From positions 62,001 to 126,000 of the forward strand of contig CAMBZJ010000006.1 in assembly GCA_945872365.1 (NCBI GenBank): a DNA stretch of 64,000 bases, read 5' to 3'. A program made the translations under genes and the position numbers. Source of the stretch: Klebsiella pneumoniae (lineage in GTDB: Bacteria; Desulfobacterota; Binatia; UBA12015). This document shows positions 29,434 through 37,281 of the stretch, one piece after another. Under the pieces are notes generated by a model that saw only the letters and a list, made by a program, of their open reading frames with translations, was not told the DNA's origin and ran no database searches. The stretch's first letter is position 1, and each line of letters opens with the position of its first letter.

Positions 29434-30861
29434 TCAGCCCTTCTTCGCTTGCAGCGTCTTGAAGACCTGCCAGCTCTTGAGCAACTCGAGCGCCCGGTCG
29501 AGCTGCGGATCCTTCCCCGGCTCGCCCATCACGGTCAAGCCCGGATCGACCGGCTCGTCGTCTCCGTCCTCGGGTGCGGCGGCACCGGCCTTCGAGCGCG
29601 GCTTGCCGTCACCCTTGGCCGGCTCCGCGGTCGCCTTGGGTGCCGGCTCCGCGGATCCCCCGGTCGGGTTGTCGAGGTGCTTCGGCAGGTTCGCCTCGCG
29701 CAGGAACTGCGGATCGCCACGGCGCGTCTCGCCGGCCACCTGCACGACATTCTCCATCTCGATGTCGGGCTTGATGCCGGTCGCCTGGATCGAGCGTCCG
29801 TTGGGCGTGAAGTAGCGGGCCGTCGTCAGGCGCAGCGCCGACTGGTCGTCGAGCGGCAGGATCGTCTGCACCGAGCCCTTGCCGAAGGTCTGCGTGCCGA
29901 GGACGAGCGCGCGCTTGTGGTCCTGCAGGGCACCGGCCACGATCTCGGCCGCGCTCGCCGTACCGCCGTTCACGAGCACGATGACCGGGAAGTCGACGTG
30001 GCTGCCCTGCTTGCGCGCGAAGTACTTCTGCTTCTGGTTCTCGAGGCGGCCGTCGGTGTAGACGATCATGCCCGAGTCGAGGAAGGTGTCGGAAACCGCG
30101 ACCGCCTGCGAGAGCAGCCCGCCCGGATCGTTGCGCATGTCGAGCACCAGTCCGCGCAGGTTGGCGTCATCGCCGCGGCTCAGTTTCTCGAGCGCCTCGT
30201 CGAGCGCCTCGCCGGTGTGCTCCTGGAACTGCGTGATCCGCACGTAGCCGTAGCCGTCGCCGAGGCTGCGCCACTTGACGCTCTGCACCTGGATGTTCTC
30301 GCGCACCAGCGTGAAGTCGAGCAGGCGCGCGACGCCCTCGCGCCGGATCGCCAGGTTCACCTTCGTGCCGAGGGGGCCGCGCATCTTCTTCACGGCGTCC
30401 ACGAGCGACATGTCCTTGGTGAGATCGCCGTCGATCTTGATGATCTGGTCGCCGGGGTGGAGACCGGCGCGCGCCGCCGGCGTGTCCTCGATCGGCGAGA
30501 CCACCGTGAGCACGCCACCCTTGTTGGTGATCTCGATGCCGAGGCCGCCGAAACTGCCCTTCGTGTCGACCTGGAGTTCCTTGTAGAGTTCGGGCGTGAG
30601 GTAGGCGCTGTGCGGGTCGAGCGAACCCAGCATGCCGTTGACGGCGCCCTCGAGGAGTTGCTTCGTCGTCACCTCGTCGACGTAGTTCTTCTGGACGATC
30701 GAGAGGATGTTCGTGAAGGTCTCGAGATCGTCGTAGGTCTCCTTGGGGACCGCCGCGACCCGCTCGACGGCGCGGCCGCCCGAAAAGAGGATCGCCATGC
30801 ACGCGGCGAAAGCGAGCAGGGTAAGGATGGCGCGGCGACGACCGTCTCGGGGGGCCTTCAT
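29434..30861 (-). CDS. ctpA: carboxy-terminal processing protease CtpA (S41)
   Basis: A 475-residue periplasmic serine protease with an N-terminal membrane anchor (ILTLLAFAACMAILF). A PDZ domain (GGLGIEITNKGG to RREGVARLLDF) precedes the S41 domain, where the nucleophile Ser lies in GGTASAAEIVAG and the Lys in TFGKGSVQT. The C-terminal region carries a Lys/Pro/Ala-rich linker and a helical end (DRALELLKSWQVFKTL). ATG 30861 has GGGAGAA upstream. A GCTAGGGT hexamer-like box lies about 47 bases upstream (TAGGGT at 30913-30908). Such proteases trim envelope proteins or lipoproteins. It may start the xseA-xseB-ispA transcript. Confidence 0.93.
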   Translation of the reverse strand: MKAPRDGRRRAILTLLAFAACMAILFSGGRAVERVAAVPKETYDDLETFTNILSIVQKNYVDEVTTKQLLEGAVNGMLGSLDPHSAYLTPELYKELQVDTKGSFGGLGIEITNKGGVLTVVSPIEDTPAARAGLHPGDQIIKIDGDLTKDMSLVDAVKKMRGPLGTKVNLAIRREGVARLLDFTLVRENIQVQSVKWRSLGDGYGYVRITQFQEHTGEALDEALEKLSRGDDANLRGLVLDMRNDPGGLLSQAVAVSDTFLDSGMIVYTDGRLENQKQKYFARKQGSHVDFPVIVLVNGGTASAAEIVAGALQDHKRALVLGTQTFGKGSVQTILPLDDQSALRLTTARYFTPNGRSIQATGIKPDIEMENVVQVAGETRRGDPQFLREANLPKHLDNPTGGSAEPAPKATAEPAKGDGKPRSKAGAAAPEDGDDEPVDPGLTVMGEPGKDPQLDRALELLKSWQVFKTLQAKKG

Positions 30862-31005: not shown

Positions 31006-31470
31006 TCAATGGGCCGACACGATCGGGTCTCGATCCGCTGCCGGGCCGGGCGCCCGTTGCGGCAGCGAGCGCAACCAGGCGACGATCGACCAGCGCTCCG
31101 CTTCGCCCAGGGAATGCTGGAAGGACGGCATCGCCGAGCCCCGCTTGCCTTTGGAGATGCGCCAGAACAGGTAGCCGTCGCTGTACCGGGGCACGACGTC
31201 CGGCCCGGCCAGGTTTGCGGGCGAAGGCGTGAGCCCGACCGAACCAGGACCATGCCCATCGGCCTCGACCCCGTGGCAGGGCGCGCAATTCTGGACGAAC
31301 AGGCCGCGGCCCCGCCCGACCGCCGCCGGGTCCGCCGCGAGCGGGTTCACCCGGTTCACCTCGCCTGCGGTCGGATCCTGTGCCGCGGCCCGACGCGGAC
31401 CCGGCACGCCCAGCCCCGCGAAGAGAAGTGCGGCCACCGCGAGCGTCCCGAGGACCCGAGGCGGGAGCAC
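31006..31470 (-). CDS. secreted mono-heme cytochrome c
   Basis: A 154-residue protein with a signal peptide (PPRVLGTLAVAALLFAGLG, cut near RRAAA-QDP) and one heme site CAPCH in FVQNCAPCHG. The distal Met is probably in GSAMPSFQ. It is class I-like, with WSIVAWLRSLP as the final helix. GTG 31470 is the nearest standard start; a CTG three codons earlier would overlap the FTR1 stop as CTGA, matching the overlap habit of this genome. As third gene of the iron operon it may oxidise or accept electrons from ferrous iron during FTR1 transport; that is inference from position. Confidence 0.82.
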   Translation of the reverse strand: MLPPRVLGTLAVAALLFAGLGVPGPRRAAAQDPTAGEVNRVNPLAADPAAVGRGRGLFVQNCAPCHGVEADGHGPGSVGLTPSPANLAGPDVVPRYSDGYLFWRISKGKRGSAMPSFQHSLGEAERWSIVAWLRSLPQRAPGPAADRDPIVSAH

Positions 31471-31475
31471 GATCG

Positions 31476-32735
31476 TCAGGCCGCTTGGCGCGCCGCCGCG
31501 GTTCCGACCGAGGGCACGTCGGGCCGGCGCGACCAGAACCAACCGACGACGAGCGCCAGCACGAGAAGTCCCTGCAGCGCCAGTGCGAGCGCGTCGGGGA
31601 AGACGCCGAGCCAGTCGCGCAGCCACGCGGCATCCGGCATCCATGCGACGGGGTGCTGGCCGAGCCAGCCCGCCTCCTGCAACTCGCGGATGCCGACGCC
31701 CGCGAACTTGATCGCGAGCAGGTAGAGCAGCCCTCCGGTGACCGCGAAGAACGGGCGCATCGGGACGCGGACGCCGAACCAGTGGATCGCGCCGTAGAGA
31801 AGTCCGAGCAGCAACAGTCCGACGACGAGGCCACCCGCCACCGCGGCCGTGCCGCCGGTCGTCCCGAGGGCCTCGACCGCCAGCGCCTGGTAGAAGAGCA
31901 CCGTCTCGAAGCCTTCGCGGAAGACCACGAGGAAGGCGAGCATCGCAAGGCCGCCTAAGTGGTCGGAAGACGCCGCCCGCTTCACCGAGTCGCGGATGAA
32001 CTCCTGCCAGCGCCGCCCTTCGACGCGGGAGATCAGCCAGTAGGAGGTGAAGAAGAGCACCACGACGGCGAGCAGACAGGTGAGTCCCTCGATCGCCTCG
32101 CGCCCCGCCCCGAAGCCACCCGCCCGGTGGGCGACTGCGGCGAGTCCTAGGCTCGCGGCGACCGCCGCGACCGCTCCTCCGTAAAAGGGCCGCAGCACCG
32201 CGGTGCGACCGCTCGCGCGCAGCGAGGTCGCCACCGCCGACAGGATCAGGATCGCCTCGAAGCCCTCGCGCAGGATGATCAGCAGCGAGTTCGCGAAGAG
32301 CGCCCCCCTACCACCGCTCGACGAGCCCGGCGACACCCCGTCGAGCCGACCGCGGATCGCCGCGTGCAGTCCGTCGATCTCCGTCTGGGGCGCGCCGGCG
32401 CGCATCCGCGAGACGAGTTTCATCCAGTCCGCCTCGAGCGCCTTGTACGCGGCCGGGTCGCGCACGGCGAGCTTACGATCGAGGCCCGAGGACTCGAACG
32501 CGAGAAAGGCGTCGCCGACGATCTCCCGCGCCCGAACGGCATCGCTCGCGTAGAGGGCCCGGGCCTGGTCGAGCCGCGCATCGAGCGAGGCCAGGGTCTC
32601 CTCGGCGGCACGAGACGGCCGCGCGTCGAACACGAGCCCCGAAAGGAGCAGGCCGAACAGGCCGAGGAGTGCCGCGCCGCGCCGCGCGGCGCAGCGGCGG
32701 AAGTCCGGGCTTCCGAACGCAGTTACGAGGATCAT
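31476..32735 (-). CDS. FTR1-family high-affinity iron permease
   Basis: A 419-residue membrane permease. A signal segment and a helical periplasmic domain (about 45-145) precede the permease. The two REGFE iron motifs are REGFEAILIL and REGFETVLF, each inside a transmembrane helix; about seven helices follow in total. ATG 32735 overlaps the upstream iron-binding protein stop (ATGA). FTR1 proteins move iron with coupled oxidation; the neighbouring cytochrome c may be the electron partner in place of a copper oxidase. The N-terminal helical domain is like that of other bacterial FTR1 proteins with extracytoplasmic extensions. Confidence 0.9.
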   Translation of the reverse strand: MILVTAFGSPDFRRCAARRGAALLGLFGLLLSGLVFDARPSRAAEETLASLDARLDQARALYASDAVRAREIVGDAFLAFESSGLDRKLAVRDPAAYKALEADWMKLVSRMRAGAPQTEIDGLHAAIRGRLDGVSPGSSSGGRGALFANSLLIILREGFEAILILSAVATSLRASGRTAVLRPFYGGAVAAVAASLGLAAVAHRAGGFGAGREAIEGLTCLLAVVVLFFTSYWLISRVEGRRWQEFIRDSVKRAASSDHLGGLAMLAFLVVFREGFETVLFYQALAVEALGTTGGTAAVAGGLVVGLLLLGLLYGAIHWFGVRVPMRPFFAVTGGLLYLLAIKFAGVGIRELQEAGWLGQHPVAWMPDAAWLRDWLGVFPDALALALQGLLVLALVVGWFWSRRPDVPSVGTAAARQAA

Positions 32736-34165
32736 CCCTTGGTCTCCTCCGCGGGCTTTTCGACCCGCCAATCGAATGCGGTGGATGCGTTTCCGAGAAA
32801 ACGCGGCTCGCCGAGCGTGCCGATCCGCGGGGGCGCCACGTCGATCTCCACCCGGTACTCGCCAGGCCGCACCTGCAGGGTCTCGCCGTAGTGCTGGAAG
32901 GCCGACAGCAGTCCGTGCAGCGGAACCTTCACCGGCACGCCACCCGACTTCGGGGTGAGAACGAGCGTGACCTCGGCCCCCGGCACGAGCAGCCCGGTGC
33001 TGCGATCCTGCAGCACCACCTCGAGGTGGTGCGTGTCCTGCGGTCGCACCGCCTTCAACTGCGGGCCGTCGGTCCAGATCCAGAACGGCTCGGGCGGCTC
33101 GACGACGAAGCCGATGCGGTAGCCGCCCGCTTGCGCCTCGTTGCGCGCCGCGGCGAAGCCCTCGAGGATGTCGTCGCCGATCGAGTAGTCGGCGTCGACG
33201 GGCGCGGGGGGCGCCGGCGGGAAGACCGGGTGCCCGCCCTCGATCGAGTAGTCGAAGACCACGTCGGCCGGTTTCGCCACGACCCCCAGCATGTCGCCGT
33301 GACGGTCGTGGTGCGGCGCTTCGACGTGAATGCGCAGCCGGCCCTTCGCCCCGGTCGGCGCGGGCAAGTTGGCGCCGTACTGCTGAAAATCCCCCCACAG
33401 GGGTGCGAGTTCGGCCTTGGCCACCACCTCGTCGCCGGCGCCGAGGAACTCCGCCGTGACCACCGAACCCGGCAGGAAGCGCTTGCTGCGTCGCTCGCGC
33501 AGGACCACGCCAAGGTAGGTCGTCGAGTCCGCCGGCGGCGCGACCTTCTCGGCCATGCCGCCGGCTACTCTCCGGAAAATCGGCTGCGTGGGCTCGGTGA
33601 GCACGCCGATCCGGTAGTCGCCGGCCACCTGCTCGGCCTCGATGGCGCGGTCCGCCTGCGCGGTCGCCGCGCGGAGGCCCGCCGTCGCGCTACTTTCGGC
33701 CGGACCAAGCGCGAGCAGCGTCGCGGTCGCGGCCCGCGACAGGGACGCCACCTCGGCCGGCGGCTTGCGCGCGCCGACCGCGCCGGTGAGCGCCGCGATC
33801 GCGTCACGACCGCGGCCGATCGCCGCCTCGTCCGCCCGGAGCCGCGGCGCGAGTTTCTCCAAACGCATTCGCGCCTGGTCGCAAAACAGCTCCGCCTCGC
33901 CGATCTCGACCTCGTCCTTCACCTTGCCCGTGTCGTCGACGGCAAGACCGTACTCCTGGGAGACGAGCTTGACGGCGGCGGTGAGTGTCGCGAGGTCGTC
34001 GGAGAGGGTCGCGTCGGGCGGCCCGGGCGAGGGCGCGCCTGGATTGGTACCCGACAGTCCGGTCGTCGCCGCCGCCGCTGGGGGCGCCGCGACCAGAGCG
34101 AAGCGCCCTTTCCAGCCGACGAACGGCAGGGCGAGGACGAAGAGGAAGAAGGCGCGGGTTCTCAT
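32732..34165 (-). CDS. tandem Tp34/P19-type periplasmic iron-binding protein
   Basis: A 477-residue exported protein. After a signal peptide (RAFFLFVLALPFVG) and a Pro/Ala linker comes a helical domain (about 52-160), then two Iron_transp (PF10634)-like beta domains at about 181-307 and 347-468. They share YRIGxxxEP starts and a YGxxL...GxxRxxIxVxxP end, so they are internal duplicates. Single-domain relatives (Tp34, P19) are about 170 residues and bind Fe2+/Cu in the periplasm. ATG 34165 has AGGGA upstream; an earlier in-frame ATG at 34189 lies inside the Fur-like site and is less likely. First gene of the FTR1 operon. Confidence 0.82.
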   Translation of the reverse strand: MRTRAFFLFVLALPFVGWKGRFALVAAPPAAAATTGLSGTNPGAPSPGPPDATLSDDLATLTAAVKLVSQEYGLAVDDTGKVKDEVEIGEAELFCDQARMRLEKLAPRLRADEAAIGRGRDAIAALTGAVGARKPPAEVASLSRAATATLLALGPAESSATAGLRAATAQADRAIEAEQVAGDYRIGVLTEPTQPIFRRVAGGMAEKVAPPADSTTYLGVVLRERRSKRFLPGSVVTAEFLGAGDEVVAKAELAPLWGDFQQYGANLPAPTGAKGRLRIHVEAPHHDRHGDMLGVVAKPADVVFDYSIEGGHPVFPPAPPAPVDADYSIGDDILEGFAAARNEAQAGGYRIGFVVEPPEPFWIWTDGPQLKAVRPQDTHHLEVVLQDRSTGLLVPGAEVTLVLTPKSGGVPVKVPLHGLLSAFQHYGETLQVRPGEYRVEIDVAPPRIGTLGEPRFLGNASTAFDWRVEKPAEETKG

Positions 34166-34174
34166 GATTTCCCT

Positions 34175-34222
34175 GAAAACGACTTTCATTTTCAGTTTGC
34201 CATGGGGTCGCAGGGGCGTCAA
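34175..34222 (-). promoter_or_regulatory. predicted promoter with overlapping Fur box for the iron operon
   Basis: On the minus strand TTGACG (34222-34217), 17 bases, then CAAACT (34199-34194) make a promoter. Immediately after lies GAAAATGAAAGTCGTTTTC (34193-34175), matching the 19-base Fur consensus GATAATGATAATCATTATC at 14 positions. It is centred in a dyad of CTGAAAA/TTTTCAG arms (34173-34195). Bound Fur would cover the -10 box and start site and repress the operon when iron is plentiful. Pattern and context agree; binding is not shown. Confidence 0.62.
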
Positions 34223-34266: not shown

Positions 34267-35553
34267 TCAGTTCCCGTCGGGCCCGCGGACCCACTTCCCG
34301 GTGTCGATGAGCGTCTTCAGATCGCGTTCGATCGCCGGGTCCCGCCAGTCGCGCGGCCCGATGAAGCGGGCCAGTTGGCGGCCCTCCCGGTCGATGATGA
34401 AGGTCTCGGGGTAGCCGGTGATGCCGTAGCGACGCCCGATCTCGCCGGTCGAGTCGACGAGGACCGGAAAGGTGATCCTCATCTCGTCGACGAATCGGCG
34501 CACCGGTTCGCTGCCGTCGTCCTCGCTCACGGCGAGCATGACAAAGTCCTGGGCGCCGAGCTTCTCCGCGAGCGCCTCCATCGCCGGCATCTCGCTGCGA
34601 CACGGCGGGCACCAGGTCGTCCAGAGGTTCAGGAAGACCACCTTGCCGCGCTGCGACGAGAGCCGTACCGCCTGACCCGCGAGGTCCTGGGCGACGAAGT
34701 CGGGGGCCGTGGGCGACCCCTTGCAGCCGCTCGCCACGCCGGCGAGCGTCAGGCCGAGCACGATGAGGGGAAGCCCGACGATCCTGCGCTGGTGTCGCTG
34801 CGCCCAGACCAAGCCGAGTCCACCGAGGAGCATGCTCGCGATCCCGAACCACTGCGCCTCGGTGAGCCCGAGCCACAGGCGCGGCTCGATGCGCACGATT
34901 TCGACGAGGAACCGCGCGAGCCCCGAGAGCACCAGGTAGGCGCAGAGCACCGAACCCGGTGCGTACCGGTCCTCGCCCTCGCGCCGCGAGAGCGCGAGCA
35001 GCCAGAGGAAGATCCCCGCATACAGCAGGCTTTCATAGACGGGTGCGGGGTGGACGCGAAAGCCGTCGGGATGCGACCAGCCGAAGATGGCGCGGGTGTA
35101 GGCCATCGCCCAGGGCAGCGTGGATGGCCCACCCCAATCGCCGTCGCCCGAGAGCTGGCAGCCGATGCGCCCGATGGCCTGTCCGAGCGCAAGTCCCGGT
35201 GCGATCGCGTCGACGACGACTGGCCATGGCAGGCCGCTGCGCACGACGTAGGCCGTCACTGCGACGAATCCGCCGACGAGTCCGCCATACCAGACGAAAC
35301 CCGCGCCGGTGATGAGCCGGTCGAGCGGGGCCGAGAGGAAGCCCTGCCAGTCGTTCAAGAGGGCGAGGATGCGCGAGCCGAGGATGCCGCCGACGGCCGC
35401 CCAGGTGACGATCGAGGTCACGTGCCCCCGGTCGAGTCCGCGGCGTTCGAACCCCCGCTCGATCACCGCCCCGGCGCCGAGGAAGGCGAGCGCGAGCATG
35501 GCCCCGAAGCTGTAGAGCTTGAGCGGACCCAGCTGGAGCAGGACGGGGATCAT
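34267..35553 (-). CDS. lgt: fused prolipoprotein diacylglyceryl transferase and TlpA-like thioredoxin
   Basis: A 428-residue fusion. Residues 1-255 are Lgt with about seven transmembrane helices: VWYGGLVGG (88-95), the signature GRIGCQLSGDGDWG (128-141) and PVYES (171-175). Residues 256-277 form a basic-hydrophobic segment ending in a lipobox, AGVASGC (Cys277). Residues 285-420 are a TlpA/ResA thioredoxin domain with CPPC at 315-318 and the cis-Pro in GYPETFII. No stop separates the parts. Lgt attaches diacylglycerol to lipobox cysteines; the TlpA part would be a periplasmic thiol reductase held at the membrane, fitting the nearby cytochrome c genes. The lipobox inside an Lgt fusion is remarkable. 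Confidence 0.9.
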   Translation of the reverse strand: MIPVLLQLGPLKLYSFGAMLALAFLGAGAVIERGFERRGLDRGHVTSIVTWAAVGGILGSRILALLNDWQGFLSAPLDRLITGAGFVWYGGLVGGFVAVTAYVVRSGLPWPVVVDAIAPGLALGQAIGRIGCQLSGDGDWGGPSTLPWAMAYTRAIFGWSHPDGFRVHPAPVYESLLYAGIFLWLLALSRREGEDRYAPGSVLCAYLVLSGLARFLVEIVRIEPRLWLGLTEAQWFGIASMLLGGLGLVWAQRHQRRIVGLPLIVLGLTLAGVASGCKGSPTAPDFVAQDLAGQAVRLSSQRGKVVFLNLWTTWCPPCRSEMPAMEALAEKLGAQDFVMLAVSEDDGSEPVRRFVDEMRITFPVLVDSTGEIGRRYGITGYPETFIIDREGRQLARFIGPRDWRDPAIERDLKTLIDTGKWVRGPDGN

Positions 35554-35703: not shown

Positions 35704-37281
35704 ATGCGATCCGAAACCCACCACCGCTTGCGACCCCGCCAGGGCGACCTCCCACGCCGCCGGTGGCGATGTGCGCCGGGCATCGCCCTGCTCGCGCTGC
35801 TCGCCTCGGCCTGCTCCGATAGCGGACCCGCGCCCGGCGGCGACGGAGTGCCCGCCGTCGGACCCTGGAATTCCGGGGCGTACCTCGCGGCCGAGCCGCA
35901 GGAGGTGGGCGATCCGGAGGCCGGCCGCCACATGCTGCTCAACGGCGACTTCATGACCTGCGGCATTCCCTACTCGCTCTATTCGAATCCCGTCTGGGGC
36001 CCGGTCGTCTCCGGCGGCTTCGGAGCGACGACCGCCGACCGCATCCCGGGGCGCGAGGGCAAGAACGCCGACATGCCCTACTCGCTCAACGTCTTCACCG
36101 CGCCCGACGGCGCCGAGGTCGTGAACGCCAACTGCCTCATGTGCCACGGCGGCAAGTTCGACGGCGAGGTGATCGTCGGGCTGGGCAACGCGAACGCCGA
36201 CTTCACCGGTCGGCTCGGCGGAAACGGCGCCGGGCCGCTCGCGCCGGAGATCCTCGACCTGCTCGGACTCACGCCGGCCGAGAAGGACAACCTGAACAAG
36301 ATGCTGGGCCGCGCGGCGACCCTCGCGCCGGCCACGGTCATGCGAGCGGTCGGCAACAACCCGGCCGAACTCTACGCCGTCATCCTCATGGTCCACCATG
36401 ATCGCGACACGCTCGCGTGGAGCGACGTGCCGGTCACGCAGATCCACCCGGTGGACGTCGACGGCAGCCCGATCGCCGACTACACGCTCACCTCGGATCC
36501 ACCGCCGTGGTGGCGCGCGCACAAGAAGAACGCGCTGTTCTACAATGGCATGGCGCGCGGCGACCACCGCGGCACGATGGCGCTCGCGACCTCTGTCTGC
36601 ATCGACGACGTCGACCGCGCCCGCGAGGTCGATGCGATGTTCCGCGACATCCAGGCCTACATCGCGAGCCTGCGTGCGCCGCTCTGGACCCGCCCGGTCG
36701 ACCGCGCACTCGCGGCGGAGGGCAAATCCGTCTTCACGCGGAACTGTGCCGGCTGCCACGGCACCTACGCCGACGACCCCCTCGACGACGCGCACGACAC
36801 CTACCCCAACCTGCTCATCCCGCTCGACGTGATCGGCACCGACCCGGTCGTCGCGAACCTCGGTGTCGTCCACTCGCCCGAACTGGTCGAGTGGTACAAC
36901 GCCTCGTTCTACGGCGGCGTCACCCGCATGGTGCCGAACGACCCGTTTCCCGGCTACATGCCGCCGCCGCTCGACGGGATCTGGGCCACCGCCCCGTATC
37001 TCCACAACGCTTCGGTGCCGACGATCGAACTCGTGCTGAACGGCCCGGCGCGCCCCACGGCGTGGCGACGCGTCGACCAGGACAGCAGCCACTACGACGC
37101 GGAGGCGCTCGGCTGGCCGTGGGTCGAGGTGCCGGGCGGCCAGGACTCGGTACCCGAGCCGGAGCGCAAATACGTGTACGACACCTCGTGGTGGAGCCAG
37201 TCGAATGCGGGCCATCCCTTCGGCGACCATCTCTCCGAGGCCGAGCGACGCGCCGTCCTCGAATACCTGAAGACGATCTGA
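35704..37281 (+). CDS. di-heme cytochrome c lipoprotein
   Basis: A 525-residue protein with a lipobox-type signal (ALLALLASAC) and two heme sites, CLMCH (about residue 145) and CAGCH (about residue 350). The second half reads like a terminal cytochrome c domain with YKMxPP-like MPPPLDGIWATAPYLHN, resembling the di-heme c-type or peroxidase-related families. ATG 35704 has AGAGGGA upstream; TTGTCC (35657) and TAGGAC (35681) with an 18-base spacer may be its promoter. It is divergent from the Lgt-TlpA gene, whose thioredoxin domain could assist cytochrome maturation. Substrate not determinable. Confidence 0.8.
   Translation: MRSETHHRLRPRQGDLPRRRWRCAPGIALLALLASACSDSGPAPGGDGVPAVGPWNSGAYLAAEPQEVGDPEAGRHMLLNGDFMTCGIPYSLYSNPVWGPVVSGGFGATTADRIPGREGKNADMPYSLNVFTAPDGAEVVNANCLMCHGGKFDGEVIVGLGNANADFTGRLGGNGAGPLAPEILDLLGLTPAEKDNLNKMLGRAATLAPATVMRAVGNNPAELYAVILMVHHDRDTLAWSDVPVTQIHPVDVDGSPIADYTLTSDPPPWWRAHKKNALFYNGMARGDHRGTMALATSVCIDDVDRAREVDAMFRDIQAYIASLRAPLWTRPVDRALAAEGKSVFTRNCAGCHGTYADDPLDDAHDTYPNLLIPLDVIGTDPVVANLGVVHSPELVEWYNASFYGGVTRMVPNDPFPGYMPPPLDGIWATAPYLHNASVPTIELVLNGPARPTAWRRVDQDSSHYDAEALGWPWVEVPGGQDSVPEPERKYVYDTSWWSQSNAGHPFGDHLSEAERRAVLEYLKTI

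Follow-up and report, generated by a model that had tools for sequence, protein, structure and literature searches.

A fused lgt-tlpA gene with an internal lipobox as a candidate polyprotein of the bacterial lipoprotein pathway

Can an Lgt carry a substrate of its own kind within the same polypeptide chain? This question is raised by a gene located on the minus strand of the window, by which we mean the whole 64,000-nucleotide stretch of DNA analysed here. The gene joins Lgt to a CPPC thioredoxin in one unbroken frame, as a first-pass annotation of this DNA had claimed; its coordinates and residues were confirmed, and only the strand had been left unstated. Our reading is that the product is probably a bacterial polyprotein, the Cys277 residue of which would receive its lipid from Lgt itself, either in cis or from a second molecule, before Lsp cuts the chain into Lgt and a lipoprotein thioredoxin.

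The fusion protein and its internal lipobox

The features of the locus, with the evidence for each in brackets, are as follows.

34267-35553, minus strand: lgt-tlpA fusion gene (a single 428-codon frame starting from ATG, without internal stop)
34795-35553, minus strand: Lgt part, residues 1-253, with seven TM helices (Pfam, alignment, AlphaFold model)
34780-34797, minus strand: basic loop R253-I258 (RHQRRI) between TM7 and TM8, the putative cytoplasmic-side n-region of a signal peptide (sequence; positive-inside reading; AlphaFold helix limits)
34726-34776, minus strand: TM8, residues 260-276, the putative h-/c-region of the internal signal peptide (AlphaFold helix 260-275; spacing from charge to Cys)
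34723-34734, minus strand: lipobox A274-S275-G276-C277, with the Cys277 codon at 34723-34725 (conservation in fusions)
34300-34710, minus strand: ResA/TlpA-type thioredoxin domain, residues 282-418 (Pfam, 3kcm match, Foldseek)
34600-34611, minus strand: CPPC redox motif, residues 315-318 (sequence; both Cys invariant in fusions)
29434-30861, minus strand: ctpA, encoding a PDZ-containing S41 peptidase and located downstream of lgt-tlpA, listed for context only

Pfam analysis of the fusion protein gave LGT at residues 3-250 (E 8.6e-43), AhpC-TSA at 282-391 (E 2.8e-29) and Redoxin at 282-409. The LGT profile (PF01790) was covered from position 1 to 240 of its 240 positions, with 146.8 bits as compared to a curated cut-off of 24.9. 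The two domains are joined by the linker RHQRRIVGLPLIVLGLTLAGVASGC, in which a basic loop is followed by a hydrophobic stretch and by a lipobox with Cys277 as its last residue. In the AlphaFold model of the fusion, the seven Lgt helices are followed by an eighth helix at residues 260-275 and by a thioredoxin fold from about residue 287; with a mean pLDDT of 67.8 this model is modest, and the surroundings of the active site are too weak for judging the geometry of a modification in cis. The seven helices described earlier apply to the Lgt part of the protein, while the whole precursor has eight according to this model, the eighth being the putative internal signal.

The thioredoxin half is nearest to ResA/TlpA-type proteins, with 117 bits for 3kcm on the sequence level and with 3kcm, ResA and TlpA as the best Foldseek matches; the Foldseek matches listed are thioredoxins and bear on this half of the protein, not on the Lgt half. 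Full-length ResA/TlpA-type thioredoxins are attached to the membrane by their N-terminus. Lipoprotein or membrane-anchored representatives (3kcm, ResA 1st9, TlpA 1jfu and the pneumococcal Etrx2 4hqz) share the thioredoxin fold and a CPPC or CxxC motif with the fusion, in which, however, the predicted signal peptide is internal and located behind a seven-helix enzyme.

The features of a type II signal peptide are present in the linker, namely a basic n-region (RHQRR), an h-region (260-276) and a lipobox (ASGC). Unlike in an ordinary bacterial lipoprotein, this signal is internal and not N-terminal in the primary product. Conservation of Cys277 was a point on which the first-pass annotation had made its reading depend, and the residue is present in 19/19 fusions, preceded at position -1 by Gly or Ala in every one of them (19/19). 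In the window's own family (f1), the mean fraction of the commonest letter, with a gap treated as a letter, is 1.00 at Cys277 and about 0.55 in the other columns from 254 to 281, the corresponding values for Lgt and thioredoxin being 0.76 and 0.79. The helix preceding the cysteine is highly variable, its segment length and sequence changing in the fashion of signal peptides, and the spacing from the last charge to the Cys amounts to 15-22 residues in all fusions. Besides C277, the only invariant cysteines of the fusions are C132 in the Lgt motif and the CPPC pair. A strict PROSITE-type lipobox core was found in 13 of the 18 fusions scanned; the other five (5/18) have Pro or Cys at -4 or -3, and all of these still end in [GA]-Cys. 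With respect to its position and the small residue at -1, the lipobox of the fusions agrees with that in the signal peptides of the lipoprotein TlpAs encoded separately in families f4, f6, f14 and f16, and the spacing from charge to Cys is similar. Since the TlpAs of eight other families are devoid of that Cys, the thioredoxin fold does not require it.

Residues and likely activity of the Lgt half

The Lgt half resembles E. coli Lgt (PF01790; PDB 5azb/5azc) over the whole length of the domain with its arginines kept, but it represents a divergent N146C/E151D, H103Y subtype and bears a C-terminal extension consisting of the putative lipoprotein signal and the thioredoxin. R129, R214, G141, E174, E218 and R221 of the window's Lgt correspond to R143, R239, G154, E202, E243 and R246 of the E. 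coli enzyme, and substitutions are present at H103 (Y89), N146 (C132) and E151 (D137) as well as in the form of Y26F and Y235S. The equivalents of R143, R239, G154, G99, G104, G142, G145, E202, E243 and R246 are invariant in 75/75 aligned class members, and the replacements of N146 by Cys and of E151 by Asp are likewise found in 75/75. All fusions have Tyr or Phe at H103, Phe at Y26 and a small residue at Y235.

E. coli Lgt is inactivated by N146A and by Y26A (PMC13251419). In distant Lgts, a 2026 survey found H103 replaced by Y/W/F, N146 by C and E151 by C/D; the N146C Lgt of Leptospira interrogans is partly functional in E. coli, and the N146C homologue of M. smegmatis is presumed to be weakly active (PMC13251419). 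As both H103 and N146 are replaced in surveyed distant Lgts, these residues do not define the Lgt family as a whole, and since the same replacements occur there, the N146C/E151D Lgt is, as judged from its sequence, a natural subtype and not a decayed copy.

A search for a separate lgt elsewhere, as suggested by the first-pass annotation, gave a divided answer. The own genome (an assembly of 3.1 Mb in 57 contigs, 97% complete) has one further LGT-family match, a divergent paralogue, together with Lsp and Lnt, while genomes G005, G028 and G035 (88, 96 and 95% complete, respectively) have none, so that the fusion is their sole LGT-family match. All three contain Lsp, and G028 and G035 also contain a Pal bearing the lipobox VLVMAGC. 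A sole LGT-family gene in the company of Lsp and a lipobox-bearing Pal suggests that the fused Lgt is very probably functional and would have to act on chains of its own kind. Thus, if lipoproteins are made in G005, G028 and G035, it is most likely the fused Lgt that makes them, its own thioredoxin included. Lsp was present in 13/13 fused genomes checked. As far as additional LGT-family genes of other fused genomes were accessible to reading, their motifs are of the GCCFG/GCCAG-like type, and the canonical GRxGN was seen in none of them.

Further LGT-family proteins with GRxGC...GCCFG/GCCAG-like motifs, some of them without (Y/H)GGL, were also seen at loci L002, L145, L147, L149, L150, L192, L193, L196-L199 and L202. 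They are probably paralogues.

Distribution of the fusion and its origin from adjacent genes

The fusion was found in 19 of the 148 class genomes searched, spread over four families: 13 of the 14 members of f1, two members of f4, one of f6 and three of f10. The fourteenth f1 member, G013, has lost the junction at a contig end, and all 13 readable f1 junctions are fused. A stop between the two parts, the other finding that would have spoken against the first-pass annotation, does not occur in any of the 19 fusions. The genomes compared are mostly draft assemblies, mostly or all from uncultured organisms, and the named relatives with the fusion or a linked pair are labelled Deltaproteobacteria, Candidatus Binatia or similar, from which we infer a Binatia-like, uncultured class. 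Outside this class, no fusion was detected at E <= 1e-60 in a 395-genome phylum sample; distant phyla were hardly sampled. A candidate distant fusion at L083 (Anaerolineales) was rejected, its Lgt and thioredoxin matches being located in different open frames or strands. In the open-licence literature, nothing relevant was found on internal lipoboxes or on a fusion of Lgt to a thioredoxin.

Linked families without the fusion have the thioredoxin gene immediately behind lgt, mostly with a four-base NTGA overlap and in another frame; in f2, lgt is unlinked to a thioredoxin gene. The separate lgt-tlpA pairs of other Binatia families (e.g. L152, L021, L156) resemble the fusion in being direct neighbours, but consist of two reading frames giving two proteins from the outset. 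Where the genes are split in f4, f6, f14 and f16, the same lipobox as in the fusion is located at the N-terminus of the free-standing thioredoxin, and the thioredoxins of f3, f5, f7, f8, f9, f11, f13 and f15 are anchored by a hydrophobic segment that lacks the Cys. Among the linked genomes examined, the lipobox lineages comprise 19 fused and 12 split cases and the anchor lineages 0 fused and 38 split cases, counts that are not independent because of shared ancestry. The association of fusion with lipobox was not significant when analysed by independent pairs, as there are too few events.

On the Lgt tree the fused state requires four changes, and the same number is required on the thioredoxin tree, where the f4/f10/f14/f16 thioredoxins form a separate long branch with 100% support. 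One origin for all fusions was rejected by the AU test (p 1.9e-6); as for narrower unions, f1 + f6g11 was weakly rejected (p 0.04) and f4g15 + f10 was not rejected (p 0.105). Both trees and the AU test therefore point firmly to at least two fusions of different partners, and the number of origins was probably four. As lgt and tlpA are in different frames, an indel is required for fusing them; in a single genome one might reasonably suspect a sequencing error behind it, though not in 19.

Two further observations concern the tlpA genes. The branch leading to the f4/f10/f14/f16 TlpAs (L152-L158, L016, L017, L019, L020, L118) separates them from all other linked TlpAs by 1.07 changes per column, and in these families the position behind lgt may have been taken over by a different thioredoxin. 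In f8, the junction reads CTGA in L027, L167, L170, L171 and L174, without ATG, GTG or TTG at the start of tlpA, and GTGA in L172; the first five are likely to use CTG as a start or to be coupled in some other way.

With respect to the neighbourhood, ctpA is located downstream of lgt-tlpA in most loci with long enough flanks throughout the class. Between the fusion and ctpA, an insert in the window (31006-34189) comprises the genes for an FTR1 iron permease and a cytochrome c together with a third gene of 486 codons to which no Pfam family matched. This insert of the window's genus is present in L033 and L034 and was not detected in the other loci examined, which argues against a role of the iron genes in the core function of the fusion. 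A RoxA-like cytochrome with an N-terminal lipobox of its own (LLASAC) is encoded divergently beside the fusion gene (35704-37281, plus strand).

Proposed processing, alternatives and significance

Lgt has its N-terminus outside and its C-terminus in the cytoplasm. Because the Lgt C-terminus is cytoplasmic, TM8 would run outward, with its basic end inside and Cys277 outside. The gene product would be a single membrane precursor, the Lgt half of which inserts by seven helices, and the basic loop and the eighth helix would act as a lipoprotein signal peptide that takes the thioredoxin to the periplasm and positions Cys277 on the outer side of the membrane. Diacylglycerol would be put on Cys277 by the Lgt of the same chain or of another copy. 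Subsequent cleavage by Lsp in front of Cys277 would leave Lgt with the used signal as an additional helix at its C-terminus and would yield, as the second product, a separate lipid-anchored ResA/TlpA-like thioredoxin. The description as a self-processing enzyme-substrate fusion is therefore half right, as the cut itself would be made by Lsp. While the frame, the conservation of the lipobox, the descent from adjacent genes, the repeated fusion and the presence of Lsp are read from the sequences, we infer the lipidation, the cleavage and the mode of modification, cis or trans.

For E. coli Lgt, it has been proposed that the lipobox peptide enters via a cleft between TM3 and TM7 (PMC4728403). As only a short loop connects TM8 to TM7, beside this proposed entry, modification in cis is plausible; the data agree equally well with one molecule modifying another. 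A more detailed scenario combines cis lipidation via the TM3/TM7 cleft beside TM8, release by Lsp and repeated in-place fusions with a thioredoxin that may keep lipobox thiols reduced; we put it forward tentatively, as possible rather than probable.

Alternatively, the fusion might remain uncut and TM8 might be a lasting tether, perhaps so that the thioredoxin can keep Cys132 of Lgt, or the lipobox Cys of further substrates, in the reduced state; Cys277 would then be redox-active or structural, or lipidated in the uncut chain. Lgt needs a free thiol on its substrate, and the adjacency of lgt and tlpA in nearly all families of the class, mostly with a membrane-anchored TlpA, suggests joint action. 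However, every fusion has a lipobox and the lineages with a non-cleavable anchor never fused, which makes a lasting tether unlikely; moreover, a Cys277 with Gly/Ala at -1 would be needless in a tether, and Lsp accompanies the fusion wherever checked. It is rather improbable that lipidation and cleavage do take place but are due to another Lgt, the fused half being weak or specialised. The N146C, Y26F and H103Y replacements would fit with this, as would the further LGT-family genes of most fused genomes, including the one in the own genome, but G005, G028 and G035 lack any other LGT-family match at 88-96% completeness, the readable paralogues have GCCFG/GCCAG motifs instead of the canonical GRxGN, and the fusion invariably has the two arginines on which the E. 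coli enzyme depends (R143 and R239).

It is hardly credible that the fusion arose as an artefact of assembly or sequencing, or that two proteins are produced via internal initiation. The genes of the split relatives, overlapping by four bases in different frames, could be joined by a one-base error, but the same open frame is found in 19 separately assembled genomes, including all 13 readable f1 junctions, and an artefact was rejected on these grounds. An internal translation start was rejected as well: no start codon is conserved among the fusions from TM7 to Cys277, and the L006 and L007 fusions have none at all behind the basic loop. A single precursor leaving the ribosome is the simple reading of these sequences.

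When regarded as a polyprotein that would be parted by Lgt and Lsp, the fusion can be compared to Bradyrhizobium FbcH, a cytochrome b/c1 polyprotein that is cut at an internal signal peptide by signal peptidase I. In both cases, a polytopic membrane protein and an exported protein are combined in one chain and are parted, or would be parted, at an internal signal. FbcH, however, depends on signal peptidase I and not on Lgt and Lsp, and its chain does not include the enzyme. The peptide substrate is absent from the E. coli Lgt crystal structures (PMC4728403), and a natural covalent enzyme-substrate chain would help to trap an Lgt-peptide complex and to test the entry of the lipobox to the active site. 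Furthermore, the class-wide linkage of lgt and tlpA raises the question whether a dedicated thioredoxin keeps lipobox cysteines reduced. If our reading is true, the fusion would represent a polyprotein of bacteria that is separated into its parts by the lipoprotein pathway and that itself contains the modifying enzyme.
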